Shown: piece by piece, positions 2,669 to 34,828 of the stretch
Numbering within the stretch: the stretch's first letter is position 1
How the letters are laid out: each line of letters begins with the position of its first letter
Assembly: GCA_029781975.1 (NCBI GenBank)
Contig: JAKOVQ010000017.1
Coordinates: 380,074-444,073, forward strand
Direction of reading: 5' to 3'
Length of the DNA: 64,000 bases
From: Acidobacteriota bacterium
GTDB taxonomy: Bacteria; Acidobacteriota; Thermoanaerobaculia; UBA5066
The notes under the pieces: model-generated
Database searches by the model: none
Seen by the model: only the letters and a program-made list of their open reading frames with translations
Told to the model about the DNA's origin: nothing
Program-made: the position numbers and the translations under genes

Positions 2669-3457
2669 TCATACCCCGGCGATCCCCGGCTCGAGCCGCT
2701 CCCACCCCTCTTCCTGCGCCCAGAGGTCGAGGGCGACGGAGAGGAGGTCGTCGACCTCGGGGAGGGGACGCGCATCGACGCCGAGGTCGATCGCCTTCAC
2801 GTACCGGCGGCAGGCTTCGCACGCCTCGAGCCTCACGCCGGGATGGCGCTCGGAGCGGAACACCGGGAGCTTCGCCGGGTCGGTCTCCCCGCAGCCCGGG
2901 CAGCGGATCCGCTCGAGGGCCCGTTCCCCGCCGCAGAAGGAGCAGACGAGATGGCGCCCCGCCCCGTGCGTCTCGGCTTCCACCCGCAGGAACCCGACTC
3001 CCGGAGGGCCCCCGCAGAACGGACACCCCGTATCGGACGGGGGACGGTCCGGCCGGTGGCCCGCCGCCCGGAGCGTCTCGAGGCAGGGGCGGAGGAACGC
3101 TCGGGAGAGGAAGTCGCTCGCGCCCGAGGCCTCGGCCGACCAGGACGCCAGGAGGCGCCTGCGCCCTTCCTCGTCCCCTCCCTCCAGCAGGCGTCCCGCT
3201 TCCTCCGCGACCTCCGGGGCCGAGCTGCGACGGAGGAGCTCCAGGAAGGCCCGCTGCAGGGGGAGGAGCCTCGGGAGGTCCGCGGCGATCGAGCCGGACA
3301 GGGGGGGCGGCCCGCCCGCCGCGAGGGCGGAGGCCACGCGCCCCTGAGCCCGCAGCAGCTCCCCGGCGAACCGGAGGAGCGGCACGGCCGCTCCTCCCTC
3401 CGCCGCCAGCGCGTCGGCCCGGGCGGCCCGCCGCCCGAACTCCTCCGCGACCGTCAC
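2669..3457 (-). CDS. fdhE: Formate dehydrogenase accessory protein FdhE
   Basis: 262 residues from a GTG start that overlaps the gamma-subunit stop by four bases (GTGA). The C-terminal half has two CxxC-type rubredoxin-like knuckles: CPFCGG then CSFCGG, and CPGCGE then CEACRR. These bind iron in the FdhE family. FdhE is a cytoplasmic assembly factor needed for active respiratory formate dehydrogenases and interacts with the catalytic subunit. The fourfold overlap and last position in the operon fit this role. No other start with better signals is visible. Confidence 0.9.
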   Translation of the reverse strand: MTVAEEFGRRAARADALAAEGGAAVPLLRFAGELLRAQGRVASALAAGGPPPLSGSIAADLPRLLPLQRAFLELLRRSSAPEVAEEAGRLLEGGDEEGRRRLLASWSAEASGASDFLSRAFLRPCLETLRAAGHRPDRPPSDTGCPFCGGPPGVGFLRVEAETHGAGRHLVCSFCGGERALERIRCPGCGETDPAKLPVFRSERHPGVRLEACEACRRYVKAIDLGVDARPLPEVDDLLSVALDLWAQEEGWERLEPGIAGV

Positions 3458-28133: not shown

Positions 28134-30053
28134 ATGAACACCCTTTTCGTGGTCCTCATCGCGGCGATCGTCATCTACCTCGCGTACGGGTTCTACGCGA
28201 AGCGCATCGACCGCGAGGTGATCCGCTCGGACGTGAAGAGGGCGACCCCCGCACGCATGTACATGGACGGCGTCGACTTCATGCCGACGTCGAAGAACGT
28301 CCTGTACGGCTACCACTTCAAGTCGATCGCCGCGGCGGGACCGATCGTCGGGCCGATCACGGCGGCCAACATCTGGGGCTGGTTCCCCTCCCTGATCTGG
28401 CTGGTCATCGGCGTCAGCTTCATCGGGTGGGTGAGCGACTACTCGGCGATCATGGTCTCCGTCCGCAACGACGGGAACAGCCTGAGCGCCATCTCGCACC
28501 GGCTCATCGCGCCGCGCACGCGGACCATCCTCTTCGTCTTCATCTTCTTCTACCTGATGCTGCTCGCGGGCGCCTTCGTCGGGATCCTGGCGGCGATCCT
28601 CTCCGCGCGCCCCGACGTGCCGTTCGGGATCATCACCCTCGCGGTCATGGGGCTCCTGGCGGGACAGATGATGTACCGCTGGAAGATGGACCTCATCCTC
28701 GTCACAGCGGTCACGGTCACCCTGACGATCGCCGCCATGGCGCTCGGACCGTGGGGCCAGCACAAGGACGAGGCCGGCAAGCTCGTCCAGGGACCGGTCG
28801 GCCGCGCGGTCGTCGCGCTGAACGGCGCCGTCGACGACCTCTCCGGCAGGCAGCCCCTCTTCGAGGTCGGCGACCCGACGAACGCCGACCCGCGCATCCC
28901 GATCCCGGGCAAGGACGGCGTCAGGCCCTCGACGCCCGCCTACGACGCCGCGACCGGGCTCGTGAAGACGCTCCCCAACTACCTCCTCTGGATGGTCTTC
29001 CTCTTCGTCTTCTCCTACCTCGGGGCGAACATGCCGATCTGGCGCTTCGCCCAGCCGGTCAACTACATCGGGTTCTGGGTCATGCTCATCACGATCGTCC
29101 TGAGCGCCATCGGGGCGATCCTCGCGCCCCTCACCGGCGCGGTGGACTCCGCGGGGAACGCCATCGGGGCCTTCGCGCTGGCGGCCGTCAAGGACCTCGG
29201 CTTCGGCATGCCCACCAAGCCGTTCACGGCGTGGCAGCCGCTCTGGCCGATGATGTTCGTGACCATCGCCTGCGGCGCCATCTCGGGCTGGCACGCGCTC
29301 GTCGGGTCGGTCGGCACCGCCCGGCAGCTCGAGTACGAGACCGACGGCCTCCCCGTCGGCGCCGGGTCGATGTTCGGCGAGTACACCCTCGCGCTCCTCT
29401 CGCTCGTCGCCGTCTCGATCGCGGGCGTCGGAGGAGGAGGCGGCCGCTTCGCGGCGGGGGTCGGCAAGCTGATCCACGCCGGGACCTTCGGCTTCGTCCC
29501 GGAGGTCTTCGGAACGGCGCTGGGGTTCGGGTCCTTCGTCCTGATCGTCCTCACCGTCACGCAGCTCGTCTTCCGCGTCATGCGCGTGACGCTGAGCGAG
29601 TGGGTCGGGGAGACGATCCCCCTCGTCCGCAACATGCACGTGTCGAGCCTCATCTCGATGGGGCTGACGCTCGCGCTCGTCCTGACCGGCACGTGGGTCT
29701 ACCTCTGGCAGATGTTCGGCGCCTCGAACCAGCTGATGGCGGCGCTGAGCCTCCTCGTGGTCACGGTCTGGCTCAAGTCCGAGAAGCGGAACCCGAGCTA
29801 CGCGCTCTACCCGATGCTCTTCATGTACTTCACGACCCTCTTCGCCACCGCCGTGACGGCGCGCAACCTCTACGTCACGATCGCCGCGAACCCCAAGATG
29901 AGCGGGCTCCCGGTCGCAGGAGCCTGGGCGATGATCGTCCTCGCCGGGCTCCTCATCGTGGCCGCGCTCTTCATCGGCTGGGACGGCCTGAAGGCCTACC
30001 AGCGGTACGCGGCGACTCCCACGGCTCCCAAGCCCGCGCCGGCGAGCGTCTGA
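28134..30053 (+). CDS. cstA: CstA-family carbon starvation / peptide-pyruvate transporter
   Basis: 639 residues with about 16 transmembrane segments. Signature stretches include the N-terminal FYAKRIDREVI and FKSIAAAGPIVGPITAA, and later GAISGWHALVGSVGTARQLEYE and SMFGEYTLALLSLVA. CstA and BtsT import peptides or pyruvate when carbon is scarce. The first ~260 residues contain both a PF02554-like half and a periplasmic insert at residues 210-280. The ATG has GAGGAGG upstream, partly hidden in a hairpin. A perfect terminator follows the stop. Confidence 0.93.
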   Translation: MNTLFVVLIAAIVIYLAYGFYAKRIDREVIRSDVKRATPARMYMDGVDFMPTSKNVLYGYHFKSIAAAGPIVGPITAANIWGWFPSLIWLVIGVSFIGWVSDYSAIMVSVRNDGNSLSAISHRLIAPRTRTILFVFIFFYLMLLAGAFVGILAAILSARPDVPFGIITLAVMGLLAGQMMYRWKMDLILVTAVTVTLTIAAMALGPWGQHKDEAGKLVQGPVGRAVVALNGAVDDLSGRQPLFEVGDPTNADPRIPIPGKDGVRPSTPAYDAATGLVKTLPNYLLWMVFLFVFSYLGANMPIWRFAQPVNYIGFWVMLITIVLSAIGAILAPLTGAVDSAGNAIGAFALAAVKDLGFGMPTKPFTAWQPLWPMMFVTIACGAISGWHALVGSVGTARQLEYETDGLPVGAGSMFGEYTLALLSLVAVSIAGVGGGGGRFAAGVGKLIHAGTFGFVPEVFGTALGFGSFVLIVLTVTQLVFRVMRVTLSEWVGETIPLVRNMHVSSLISMGLTLALVLTGTWVYLWQMFGASNQLMAALSLLVVTVWLKSEKRNPSYALYPMLFMYFTTLFATAVTARNLYVTIAANPKMSGLPVAGAWAMIVLAGLLIVAALFIGWDGLKAYQRYAATPTAPKPAPASV

Positions 30054-30160: not shown

Positions 30161-30796
30161 TTAGGCCCGCGCCGTCTCGCCGAGCGCCCGGACCGCCTCG
30201 AAGAACTCCGCGGCGGAGGCCGACGGGCCGGGCAGGTCCACGTGGAGCTGCAGGTGGGGCTCCCGACGGCGGAGCGAGAGGCGCCGGACGCCTATCCCCG
30301 CCTGCCGCGCCCGGGAGAGGAGGGCGTCCCCCAGGGGAAGGGCGGCGTCCACCTTGAAGTACGCCGCCAGGTCGCCGCTGACCGAGGGCTCCCGCTTCGA
30401 CCACGCCTCGGAGAGGAGCTGCGGGAGGGCCTCCCGTCCCGACCAGCTGGCCGGGTCGAGCAGCTCGACGTCGAGGGCGGGGGGCTTGCGGAGCCGGGCG
30501 CGGAGGATGAGCGTGTCGCGCCGTCCCCTCAGCCGGCACGGACCCCAGATCCACGGCACGTCGCGCGGCTCGAGGAAGAGGACGACGGCGGCATCCTCGA
30601 AAGGAGACCGGGCCTTCGCGATCTTCATCTCCACCGCGGTGGTGCCGAGCCACCGCACGGTGGACCGGTCGCCGACCTGCTTCAGCCCGCCCCGGAGCCA
30701 GCGGAGGGCCGCGTTCCCCTTCCGGACGTTCCAGACGCTCCCGACCGCGAACCAGCCGACGACGAGCGCCACGAGCACCATCAGTCCCTGGTTCAT
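30161..30796 (-). CDS. Membrane-anchored protein of unknown function
   Basis: 211 residues. One N-terminal transmembrane helix (LMVLVALVVGWFAVGSVW, residues 5-22) is followed by a basic soluble domain. The ATG at 30794-30796 has GGGAGG upstream and gives a clean membrane anchor; a longer start at 30862 lacks one. The soluble part has alternating hydrophobic strands (TTAVEMKIAKA; AAVVLFLEPRDVPWIWGPC; DTLILRARLRKPP). I do not recognise the family. It is divergent from the small PPYY gene pair, with 120 bases between. Confidence 0.65.
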   Translation of the reverse strand: MNQGLMVLVALVVGWFAVGSVWNVRKGNAALRWLRGGLKQVGDRSTVRWLGTTAVEMKIAKARSPFEDAAVVLFLEPRDVPWIWGPCRLRGRRDTLILRARLRKPPALDVELLDPASWSGREALPQLLSEAWSKREPSVSGDLAAYFKVDAALPLGDALLSRARQAGIGVRRLSLRRREPHLQLHVDLPGPSASAAEFFEAVRALGETARA

Positions 30797-30916
30797 CTCC
30801 GGCCTCCCGGGCGGCCCGCCGAGCCGCCCCTCCGCGACCGATCCTCGGGTCGCGGGGACCATAGCAGAGCGGCGCGAGCGTGATAGCGTGACGGCCGCCG
30901 GAGGCGGGCGCGAGAC

Positions 30917-31195
30917 GTGCTAACGCGGGCGGAGTTCCTGAAGGCGGCGCGGGAGTTCCTCTGGGGGATGTTCGGGTACGAGCACGCGCAGCAGGCGCTC
31001 GAGATCCGGGCCTCGATGGAGAGCCTTTTCCTCCTCGTGATCTTCGGCGATATGATCGGCCTGCCGCTGATGCCGCCGTACTACGGCCTCCGCCTCCTCC
31101 CTCACGTCATCGGCGTCGTGCCGGGGTGGAAGCGCCGCTTGCTTCGCGAGCGCGGGCTGGGCGACGACCACGAGCATCACCTTCACGGCGTGTAG
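30917..31195 (+). CDS. Small hydrophobic PPYY protein 1, paralogue of the next gene
   Basis: 92 residues from a GTG. The core is RASMESLFLLVIFGDMIG, then LPLMPPYYGLRLLPHV, then WKRRLLRER. The hydrophobic run of ~17 residues could insert in a membrane as a hairpin or single helix; the basic WKRRLLRER would stay cytoplasmic. The tail is His-rich (DDHEHHLHG) and might bind metal. About 30 of 49 core residues are identical to the next protein. GGAGG lies 12 bases upstream, rather far. The family is not recognised, and position suggests service with the two downstream ATPases. Confidence 0.7.
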   Translation: MLTRAEFLKAAREFLWGMFGYEHAQQALEIRASMESLFLLVIFGDMIGLPLMPPYYGLRLLPHVIGVVPGWKRRLLRERGLGDDHEHHLHGV

Positions 31196-31257
31196 GACCG
31201 GGGGGAGAGCGGGCGCGGGGGCGCCGGCACCCCACGGTCGGGGGAAGGAGGCCACGG

Positions 31258-31542
31258 ATGCCCGAGAACGACGAGAAGAAGCCGGGTGGGCTGAAGGGGC
31301 TCTGGCGCGGGTTCCGGGAGACGATCTACGGGATGTCGGCCCACGACATGAGCCGTGCGGCCCTCCGGACGCGCGCCTCCATGGAGCACCTCTTCATCCT
31401 GATCACGATGGGGGACATGCTCGGGATCCCGATCCTCCCTCCGTACTACAGCCTCCGGCTCCTCCCCTACGTGGTCCCGCAGATCGCGACCTGGAAGCGC
31501 CGGATGCTGAGGGAGAAGGACGTCTCGGACGCGATGTTCTGA
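31258..31542 (+). CDS. Small hydrophobic PPYY protein 2
   Basis: 94 residues with an excellent GGAAGGAGG ribosome site. A charged N-terminus (PENDEKKPGG) is followed by an amphipathic segment and the same core as protein 1: RASMEHLFILITMGDMLG, IPILPPYYSLRLLPYV and WKRRMLREK. The His-rich tail of protein 1 is absent. It probably arose by duplication and was then kept distinct. It stands 61 bases before the first ATPase gene. Membrane attachment is inferred from hydrophobicity only. Confidence 0.75.
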   Translation: MPENDEKKPGGLKGLWRGFRETIYGMSAHDMSRAALRTRASMEHLFILITMGDMLGIPILPPYYSLRLLPYVVPQIATWKRRMLREKDVSDAMF

Positions 31543-31603
31543 AGCGAGGTCCTGACGCCACGACAGGCCTCCGGCAGCCGCCGGACGAGGGAGGGCCGCC
31601 GCC

Positions 31604-32587
31604 ATGGGGATGAAAGAGGTCTTCGAGAAGAACCCGGACCGCCGCTACATCATGTTCGGCGGCAAGGGAGGGCTCGGCAAGACGACGTTCTCGGCCGCCA
31701 CCGCGTACTGGCTGGCCTCGCAGGGCAAGAAGGTCCTGGTCTTCTCCGTCGACCCCCAGGCCTCCCTCACGGACATCTTCCAGAAGGACATCTTCGGGAA
31801 GGGCCCCGTGAAGATCATGGAGAACCTCTGGGCGCAGGAGATCGACGCGGACAGCCACATCAAGGCGTACCAGGAGGAGATCCGGCAGAAGATCCGCGAC
31901 ATGTACGGCCTGCCGGAGGTCCCGGAGGAGATCGAGCACTACATCCAGGCGGCGAGCTCCGAGCCCGCGATGGAGGAGAGCGCGATCTTCGACGCCGTGG
32001 TCGACGTGGTCGTTCAGGGGGACTACGACTACTACATCTACGACCTCGTCCCCCTGGGCCACGCGCTCTACTACCTGAGCATGGCCAAGGTCTACGACGA
32101 GTGGATCAACAAGGTGACCAAGCTCCGGGAGGACATGCGCGAGTACGAGGAGATGGTCAGCCGGCTCAAGCGGGAGAAGGAGACCGAGCAGGACCAGATC
32201 CTGAACGAGCTCGTCTACATCAAGGGGCGCATCAACGCGTCGTCCTCGATCCTCACCGACAAGACGAAGACCGCGTTCTTCTTCGTCGTCGTCCCCGAGG
32301 ACATGATCATCACCGACACGGAGAAGGCCGCGAAGCTCTTCTCCCAGTTCGACGTCCCGATCGGGGGCTACGTCGTCAACCGCGTCATCCCGCACCAGCT
32401 CCTGACCCAATCGATCCCGGAGTACCTGCGCAACCGGATCACGATGCAGGACAAGTACCTCGACACCATCCGGTCGACGTTCGGCCAGGACGTCCTCGCC
32501 TACGTCCCCGAGCTCGAGCGCGACGTGACGGGCCTCCCGATGATCGAGAAGCTCGCCGGCATCATGTACGGCGAGAAGGCCGGCTGA
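31604..32587 (+). CDS. ArsA/Get3-family ATPase 1 (catalytic Asp kept, switch II altered)
   Basis: 327 residues. The deviant Walker A is GGKGGLGKTT (residues 19-28), with signature Lys21 and P-loop Lys26. Switch I SVDPQASLTDIF keeps the catalytic Asp (Asp50). Switch II reads YDLVPLGHALYYL, where family members have DTAPTGHTLR. A charged helical insert at about 165-200 and the late VVNRV and GLPMIEKL motifs are family-like. It has no cysteine at all, so neither arsenite binding (ArsA) nor the Get3 zinc clasp is possible. Cytoplasmic. GGAGGG site upstream. Likely partner: the next ATPase. Confidence 0.88.
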   Translation: MGMKEVFEKNPDRRYIMFGGKGGLGKTTFSAATAYWLASQGKKVLVFSVDPQASLTDIFQKDIFGKGPVKIMENLWAQEIDADSHIKAYQEEIRQKIRDMYGLPEVPEEIEHYIQAASSEPAMEESAIFDAVVDVVVQGDYDYYIYDLVPLGHALYYLSMAKVYDEWINKVTKLREDMREYEEMVSRLKREKETEQDQILNELVYIKGRINASSSILTDKTKTAFFFVVVPEDMIITDTEKAAKLFSQFDVPIGGYVVNRVIPHQLLTQSIPEYLRNRITMQDKYLDTIRSTFGQDVLAYVPELERDVTGLPMIEKLAGIMYGEKAG

Positions 32588-32613
32588 GAGCCCGGGACGC
32601 GGAGGGAGCGACC

Positions 32614-33594
32614 ATGCCCGAGATCCAGACGTCCATGCGGGACTACCTCAAGGACCACGCCAGCCTCAAGTACGTCTTCTTCGGGGGGAAGGGGGGGGTC
32701 GGCAAGACCGTCTTCGCCGCCGCCACCGCCATCTGGCACGCGCGCCAGGGGCGCCGGACGATGCTCGCCTCCACCAACCCGGTCCACAGCCTGACGACGC
32801 TCCTCGGCCAGAACGTCCTCGGGAAGCACACCCCCGTCGACGGGGTCCCGAACCTCTGGGCCTACGAGATCGAGACGAAGGAGACGATCGAGCGGTCGAA
32901 GACCGAGATCCGCGAGAAGATCAAGTGGTTCCTCAAGTTCGCCGACATCTCGACGAAGGCCGAGGACTTCGTCGAGTCGGCCACGATGAACCCGGCGTTC
33001 GAGGAGTCGGCGATGTTCGAGAACATGATCGACCTCATGTTCAAGGACGAGTACGACGTCTACGTCTTCGACACCGCCCCCACGGCCAACGCGCGGCGCC
33101 TCCTCGGGATGTCGAAGGTCTACTCGCTCTGGGTCAACAAGATGCTCAAGAGCCGCGAGGAGGCCCGGACGCTCCGCGAGATGCTCTCCTTCACGAAGAA
33201 GAAGGAGCAGGACCCGCTCATGGCCTACCTCATCTCCTTCCGCGACCGGATGGAGCACGGCCGGGTCCTCCTGACCGACCCGGCGAAGACGTCCTTCTTC
33301 TTCGTGGCGCTGCCGGAGGCGCTGCCGATCGCCGTCATCACCCGCTTCATCCAGTGGTTCCACGACTTCGGGATCCCCGTGGGCGGCGTCCTCGTCAACA
33401 TGCTCATCGACAAGGCCGCGGTCGGCCCCGATTCCGCGGACTTCGTGAAGAACCGCGTCGCCATGCAGGACGAGCACATGCGGACCATCTGGCAGAAGTT
33501 CGACGGGAGCGTCCGCGCCGTCGTGCCGCTCTTCGAGGGGGAGATCCGCGGCCTGCCGATGCTGCAGCGGCTCGCCGACTCGATGTTCGTCTGA
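32614..33594 (+). CDS. ArsA/Get3-family ATPase 2 (Asn at the catalytic Asp position)
   Basis: 326 residues. Walker A is GGKGGVGKTV (residues 24-33) with Lys26 and Lys31. Switch I reads STNPVHSLTT, so Asn55 stands where Get3 has the catalytic Asp; in Get3 the same Asp-to-Asn change abolishes hydrolysis but not nucleotide binding. Switch II is DTAPTANARRLL, losing the GH of DTAPTGHT. FEGEIRGLPML near the end is well conserved. No cysteines are present. The start has GGAGGGAG upstream, 26 bases after ATPase 1. It is probably a non-hydrolysing half of a heterodimer. Confidence 0.88.
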   Translation: MPEIQTSMRDYLKDHASLKYVFFGGKGGVGKTVFAAATAIWHARQGRRTMLASTNPVHSLTTLLGQNVLGKHTPVDGVPNLWAYEIETKETIERSKTEIREKIKWFLKFADISTKAEDFVESATMNPAFEESAMFENMIDLMFKDEYDVYVFDTAPTANARRLLGMSKVYSLWVNKMLKSREEARTLREMLSFTKKKEQDPLMAYLISFRDRMEHGRVLLTDPAKTSFFFVALPEALPIAVITRFIQWFHDFGIPVGGVLVNMLIDKAAVGPDSADFVKNRVAMQDEHMRTIWQKFDGSVRAVVPLFEGEIRGLPMLQRLADSMFV

Positions 33595-33609: not shown

Positions 33610-33748
33610 GTTCCCGGGGGTTTCTCGATCCCCCCGGACCCCCCGACCGGAGCTCAAGTTCCCGGGGGGTTCTCGATCCCCCCGGACCCCCCGACCGGAG
33701 CTCAAGTTCCCGGGGGTTTCTCCATCCCCCCGGAACCCCCCGACCGGC
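33610..33748. repeat. 48-bp tandem repeat, 2.9 copies, each with a hairpin
   Basis: Units begin at 33610, 33658 and 33706. Copies 1 and 2 differ at a single base; copy 3 has a substitution and an extra A and then diverges. Each contains CCGGGGG facing CCCCCGG around an AT-richer loop, so three stem-loops stack between convergent genes. They probably stop transcription from the ATPase operon and from panE. The array is a multiple of three in length, but nothing supports translation. Confidence 0.85.
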
Positions 33749-33752
33749 GGGG

Positions 33753-34682
33753 CTACGCCGGGCGGGAGGACGCCCGCGCGGCCGCGAGAGCGGCGGTCGC
33801 CGTGTCGTGAGCCGGGGTCTCGACCCCTGCCTCCCGCCCCAGGCGCGAGACCGCGCCCGAGAGGTCGTCCAGCTCGTTCGGCCCGCCCGCCTCGAGGTCG
33901 AGGAGGAAGCTCGGCTTCATCCCGTCCCCCAGCGAGGCGATGAAGCGGAGGGTCCTTTCCTCCTCGTCCGGGGCGAGCGCCACCCCCCGCGCCCGCGCGA
34001 CGGCGCAGACCTCCCCGACCAGGCGCCGGAGGAGGACGTCCCCGAGCGGGGCGCCGCGGACCGGCCCGATGGCCGCGCGCGCCAGGCCGCAGGCCGCCGC
34101 CATCGAGGCGATGAAGGCGAGCTTGCGCCAGAGGTCGGCCACGACGTCGGCCGATGCGCTCGCCTCCGCCCCCGCCTCGCGGAACGCAGCCGCGACCGAT
34201 TCGGCGCGCGCCGAGAGGCCTCCGCCCAGCTCTCCCACCGTCACCCGCTGGAAAGGGCTCCGGCGCTCGACGACCCCGGGGCCCACGCGCGCCGCGCTGA
34301 CCTGGGTCAGCCCGCCGAGGAGGCTCTGCCGCGGGACGCCGGCGGCCGCCAGGCGGTCCGCCGCCCCGACCCCGTTGAGGAGCGGGAGGACGGTCGCCCC
34401 CGCCCCGGCCAGGAGCCGCCCCGCGCCCGCCACCTCGTCGAGCGAGAAGGTCTTGACGGCCACGATCGCCAGGTCCGCCGGCGCGAGGGCCGCCGGGTCG
34501 TCCGTCGCGAGGACCGGCGCGACGAAGGAGCCGTCCGGCGTGAGGACCTCGATCCCTCCTCGCGCCCGGAGCGCCGCCAGGTGCTCGCCCCGCGCGAGCA
34601 TCCCCACCGGATGCCCCGCCCGCGCGAGGATGCCGCCGTAGAGCCCGCCGACGCCGCCGGCGCCCAGGATCGCGATCCGCAT
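33753..34682 (-). CDS. panE: 2-dehydropantoate 2-reductase (ketopantoate reductase)
   Basis: 309 residues. The N-terminal ILGAGGVGGLYGGILARAG binds NADPH. The ApbA/PanE motifs VKTF, LPLLNGVGAADRL and LWRKLAFIASM follow; the latter contains the catalytic Lys. It reduces ketopantoate to pantoate for coenzyme A synthesis. Family members outside biosynthetic operons can reduce other 2-keto acids, so the substrate is not certain. The ATG has a GGAGGG ribosome site. It is divergent from the Sco gene. Confidence 0.88.
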   Translation of the reverse strand: MRIAILGAGGVGGLYGGILARAGHPVGMLARGEHLAALRARGGIEVLTPDGSFVAPVLATDDPAALAPADLAIVAVKTFSLDEVAGAGRLLAGAGATVLPLLNGVGAADRLAAAGVPRQSLLGGLTQVSAARVGPGVVERRSPFQRVTVGELGGGLSARAESVAAAFREAGAEASASADVVADLWRKLAFIASMAAACGLARAAIGPVRGAPLGDVLLRRLVGEVCAVARARGVALAPDEEERTLRFIASLGDGMKPSFLLDLEAGGPNELDDLSGAVSRLGREAGVETPAHDTATAALAAARASSRPA

Positions 34683-34828
34683 CGGGTCCCTCCGTTCCGG
34701 GGCGGCGCGGCGCACGCGCGGCGCGTGCCGGTCCGCTCCGCTTCCCCCGGGGAAGGATGCTCCGCCCGGCAGCGCCCTCACAAGCCCGCGGGTCCGGCAC
34801 GGGGTCGCGGCCGCGCCGCGCGGCTGCC

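Follow-up and report, generated by a model that had tools for sequence, protein, structure and literature searches.

The window, that is, the whole 64,000-nucleotide stretch of Acidobacteriota DNA analysed here, contains four tandem + strand genes for two small proteins and two ArsA/Get3-type ATPases, an arrangement that had been described in an earlier note on this DNA and with which our gene calls agree. The small proteins S1 (30917-31195, 92 amino acids, GTG start) and S2 (31258-31542, 94 amino acids) are followed by the ATPases A1 (31604-32587, 327 amino acids) and A2 (32614-33594, 326 amino acids), and the gaps between these genes range from 26 to 62 nt. Two upstream genes did not figure in the earlier note: one encodes a CstA-family carrier of 639 amino acids (28134-30053, + strand), and the other, F4 (30161-30862, - strand), encodes a conserved protein of 233 amino acids that is convergent with the carrier gene, lies between it and S1 and occupies the same place in many related loci. 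Since this minus-strand gene splits CstA from S1, a single common transcript is unlikely in the window. Within the module region, no sigma-70-like promoter was found, a search of Rfam families found none, and the 1 terminator-like site is no more than was obtained from shuffled sequences. F4 has one N-terminal hydrophobic segment (hydropathy 2.16), and Pfam and NCBIfam searches returned no match for it. By analogy, its size (~230 amino acids) and single hydrophobic segment may recall the archaeal CstY protein of Castillo and Saier (2010; PMC2963123).

The carrier was assigned by PF02554 (E 1.6e-100; 337.9 bits against a gathering cut-off of 27) and is the sole CstA of its genome; comparison of its sequence with solved structures gave no convincing relative. 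Elsewhere, CstA is a secondary carrier, and the cstA gene of Escherichia coli has no adjoining ATPase gene. Pyruvate uptake by E. coli CstA requires a small partner protein, YbdD (PMC5847655). The E. coli CstA-YbdD system offers a parallel to the window locus, in that a CstA carrier depends on a small partner, and differs from it in having no ATPase gene and in the identity of that partner: YbdD belongs to PF04328, a family with no match in any of 18 genomes searched, namely that of the window and 17 more carrying the paired or single form of the module.

The similarity between S1 and S2, put at about 30 of 49 core residues in the earlier note, was exactly 30 of 49 identical residues on recounting. 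Both proteins matched NF041419 (cory-CC-star) at scores under its curated cut-off of 80 bits (S1, 28.0 bits, E 1.6e-6; S2, 37.8 bits, E 1.5e-9). A literature search for 'cory-CC-star' found nothing; we read the family name as a C-terminal Cys-Cys, and this reading is supported by relatives of the module that have a single ATPase. Such an end is present in the five best small proteins of the single form and in 0 of the paired-form small proteins listed, S1 ending in HGV and S2 in AMF. The E. coli YbdD protein (PF04328; L165 in our locus set, 3183-3380) also terminates in Cys-Cys, as do the single-form small proteins (L160-L164). By length and by their place beside CstA and ArsA, S1 and S2 meet the description of CstX, the ~90-residue protein of the CstA-CstX-ArsA clusters, and it is by size and context that we liken them to it. 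Their hydropathy values (1.75 and 1.51) are borderline for a membrane span. An AlphaFold2 model of S2, of moderate confidence (pLDDT 74), has two long predicted helices with a hinge at GIPILPPYY. A Foldseek search with this model gave no match at E < 0.001, a profile of the S family gave no convincing relative among solved structures, and a search of plasmids with S2 gave none.

Both ATPases scored over the curated cut-off of TIGR00345 (ArsA/Get3/TRC40; 135 bits), A1 with 230.5 bits (E 3.1e-68) and A2 with 212.1 bits (E 1.2e-62). The motifs are SVDPQASL and DLVPLGH in A1, and STNPVHSL and DTAPTAN in A2. Asn55 of A2 (codon AAC, 32776-32778, + strand) aligns to the STDP aspartate of an archaeal Get3 (3zq6), on which the A2 model superimposes with Z 30 and an rmsd of 3.3 over 288 residues. 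The equivalent of the Get3 catalytic Asp57 is kept in A1 as Asp50 (codon GAC, 31751-31753, + strand). In yeast Get3, the D57N form binds ATP and does not hydrolyse it (PMC12506534). Neither window ATPase contains a cysteine, as had been noted before, so that both the CxxC zinc clasp of Get3 and the metal-binding cysteines of ArsA are absent. An arsenic or metal efflux module, to which membership of the ArsA family and a metal P-type ATPase gene beside one single-ATPase cousin might point, is extremely improbable, and arsenic pumping was rejected on account of the missing cysteines and the CstA neighbour.

The same features bear on a Get3-like targeting role, in which the ATPase pair would bring CstA or the CstX-like proteins to the membrane or insert them there. 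This role would suit the Get3 fold and the borderline hydrophobic stretch of the small proteins, but the zinc clasp is absent, and E. coli CstA functions without such an adjoining gene. Moreover, the segment aligned to the cargo groove is less hydrophobic in A1 than in archaeal Get3, although this difference is weak and the A2 group lies closer to Get3. We consider targeting distinctly unlikely. The loading of a small membrane protein, one of two roles suggested in the earlier note, likewise became the weaker reading once CstA was recognised, as the small proteins resemble carrier partners and their hydrophobicity is borderline.

To see how general the asymmetry of A1 and A2 is, we may turn to their relatives. 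A scan of GTDB genomes recovered 336 A2 relatives, and the analysis continued with the best 80. In the aligned sequences, Asn at position 55 and DTAPTAN were found in 81/81 A2 proteins, and Asp at position 50 and DLVPLGH in 73/73 A1 proteins, so both the replacement of the catalytic residue in only one ATPase and the different switch II loss in each, which had been noticed in a single sequence, are fixed features of the pair. This pattern is far beyond chance. As the scan was run with A2 peptides, two further searches for pairs, one starting from the small protein and one from A1, were made to counter the bias, and all complete pairs recovered by either route show the same Asp and Asn residues; none of the A2 homologues examined has Asp55.

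In nine other Acidobacteriota loci, a single ArsA-type ATPase is accompanied by a single related small protein, which at G021 and G004 was detected by the NF041419 profile alone. The catalytic Asp is kept in 9/9 of these loci, in the form of STDP or S[LM]DP, which argues that Asn is specific to the paired form. It is very unlikely that A2 is catalytic despite Asn55 and that both sites hydrolyse ATP: A2 does retain an intact Walker A motif and, in switch II, the DTAP residues, but the same change stops hydrolysis in yeast Get3 (PMC12506534), and the related single ATPases have all kept Asp. CstA adjoins five of the nine single-ATPase loci (G208, G112, G021, G027 and G004). At a further one, G096, the unit adjoins a gene for a heavy-metal P-type ATPase, recognised by eye (L160, 6264-8600), and not CstA, which implies that the ATPase/small-protein unit is not bound to CstA alone. 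These contexts suggest that the small protein and the ATPase are linked more tightly to each other than either is to CstA. Small proteins occurring freely without the ATPases would have spoken against a functional link; in the Acidobacteriota loci examined, they always lie beside an ArsA-type ATPase.

The best 80 of the 336 relatives come from Acidobacteria, Chloroflexi, Rokubacteria and Beta-, Delta- and other Proteobacteria. Among them, S1, S2, A1 and A2 keep this order in several phyla, with few exceptions, where the flank allows it to be followed, and a third small protein follows A2 in 15 loci, all labelled Chloroflexi. Of the 50 loci with 8 kb of sequence upstream of A2, 46 have a CstA gene in the vicinity; the remaining four (L059, L063, L103 and L115) count against a coupling to CstA. 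In 396 Acidobacteriota genomes, A1 was found in 11, and A2 adjoins it in 11/11, including one genome (G008) whose A2 is split between contig ends. Distances among S1 sequences correlate most closely with those of CstA, and distances among S2 sequences with those of A1, which hints weakly that S1 may face the carrier and S2 the ATPases. Genes inherited together show correlated distances anyway, so this tracking is weak support; any such cluster would also show both the co-occurrence and the distance correlation.

A tree of 63 ATPase domains placed A1 and A2 in separate clades (SH-aLRT 100 and 99) that are sisters at 95, each with a long stem and a short crown; a fast search was used for this tree, and long branches affect some of the rows that lie outside the pair clades. 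This topology suggests that A1 and A2 stem from a single duplication, which is new here. The window sequences fall with relatives from Xanthobacteraceae and Betaproteobacteria and not with those of Acidobacteriota from other families, as would be expected of a module transferred between lineages as one unit.

The earlier note knew of no described system with this layout, which does not hold. Castillo and Saier (2010; PMC2963123) reported CstA-CstX-ArsA clusters and proposed that ArsA energises CstA via the ~90-residue CstX; in two of these, from Pyrobaculum arsenaticum and Symbiobacterium thermophilum, the ArsA genes form adjacent pairs. The CstA carrier, the ~90-residue CstX, the single-domain ArsA and, in those two cases, the paired ArsA are thus common to both descriptions. 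The same authors observed that in single-domain ArsA the Asp is replaceable solely by Asn, and drew no conclusion from it (PMC2963123). They also found that the paired ArsA proteins of Pyrobaculum and Symbiobacterium cluster crosswise, bacterial with archaeal (PMC2963123), a result that fits one old duplication. That paper does not describe that Asp and Asn are invariably split between the two ATPases, that this split is limited to pairs, or that the doubled CstX forms a fixed unit with it. Hence the general layout was already known, and what is new here is the invariant asymmetry, its confinement to pairs and the probable single duplication.

On the basis of sequence and gene context, we lean, by a modest degree, towards the interpretation that the locus is a paired-ATPase form of the CstA-CstX-ArsA module, in which CstA is driven or gated, via the CstX-like proteins, by an A1-A2 heterodimer that has a single hydrolytic site. 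A1 and A2 would pair as a Get3-like heterodimer in which both subunits bind ATP and only the A1 site hydrolyses it, with A2 keeping its ATP and serving a structural or allosteric role. S1 and S2 would couple this heterodimer to CstA, and the ATP cycle would drive or gate the import of pyruvate or a comparable small metabolite. A coupling through small proteins is in keeping with the need of E. coli CstA for YbdD and with the lack of matches to the YbdD family in the 18 genomes searched; the minus-strand gene between CstA and S1, the metal P-type ATPase neighbour of one cousin and the working of CstA elsewhere as a secondary carrier speak against it. More tentatively, and as a possibility that we would not yet call probable, the CstA secondary carrier may here have been turned ATP-dependent or ATP-gated by a Get3-type heterodimer acting as a motor in which one site is permanently silent.

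The earlier note had also proposed a heterodimer with one dead site. The loss of the catalytic Asp from A2 stands, and the idea gains from the strict co-occurrence (11/11), the sister clades and the complementary, invariant degeneration of the two proteins; the heterodimer itself is what we infer from these. Another line of evidence comes from the first Walker lysine. In Get3-type dimers, the Walker lysine serves the nucleotide site of the partner subunit. This residue is lost in three A1 proteins of proteobacterial relatives (K21G, GGGGVGKT; L057, L060 and L061) and is invariant in A2, so the cross-site lysine has been dispensed with solely in A1, as expected if the A1 site alone must hydrolyse ATP. 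On the other hand, A1 and A2 might form two separate homodimers, A1 as an active ATPase and A2 as a sensor that binds ATP without hydrolysing it, each influencing CstA at a different step. Get3 is itself a homodimer, and homodimers were proposed for the CstA-linked ArsA proteins (Castillo and Saier, 2010; PMC2963123). We nevertheless regard this arrangement as rather unlikely, considering the strict one-to-one co-occurrence and adjacency of A1 and A2, the complementary loss in switch II and the loss of the cross-site lysine in A1 only.

The combination of dissimilar Get3-like subunits has a precedent in BagA-BagB (Rv3679-Rv3680) of Mycobacterium tuberculosis, two different Get3-like ATPases that were solved together in one structure (PDB 6bs3, 'bacterial Get3-like A and B'), although their sequence similarity to A1 and A2 is distant; a literature search on Rv3679/Rv3680 found nothing useful. 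The two-domain ArsA that acts with ArsB provides another comparison, as its two ATPase halves energise a membrane carrier, much as A1 and A2 may do. In ArsA, however, the halves are fused, both keep Asp and DTAPTGH in the relatives examined, and metal-binding cysteines are present, whereas A1 and A2 have no cysteines. Get3/TRC40 shares the fold and nucleotide-binding motifs with A1 and A2, but it is a homodimer with a CxxC zinc clasp, a tail-anchored cargo and the catalytic Asp that A2 lacks. If our reading is true, the silent-site motor would parallel, in an unrelated ATPase fold, those ABC transporters in which one site is degenerate. It would mean that a carrier driven elsewhere by an ion gradient can gain an ATP-driven or ATP-gated mode, and the pairs would represent a natural experiment on a dimeric ATPase that has kept one dead site across several phyla. 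Moreover, the 2010 prediction that ArsA energises CstA becomes sharply testable, since the subunit that hydrolyses ATP can be predicted from a single conserved residue.

Several other features were observed around the module. A protein of ~130-180 amino acids with a CTHC motif and a weak DUF1525 match is encoded directly upstream of CstA in L071 (2495-3049) and 30 other loci; no such protein was found within the window. A ketopantoate-reductase-like gene, recognised by eye, lies near the module in the window (33753-34781, - strand) and in eight Chloroflexi loci (e.g. L073, 1456-2559). Directly 3' of A2, the window carries a tandem array (33610-33747) with 2.9 copies of a 48-base unit and 95% matches.
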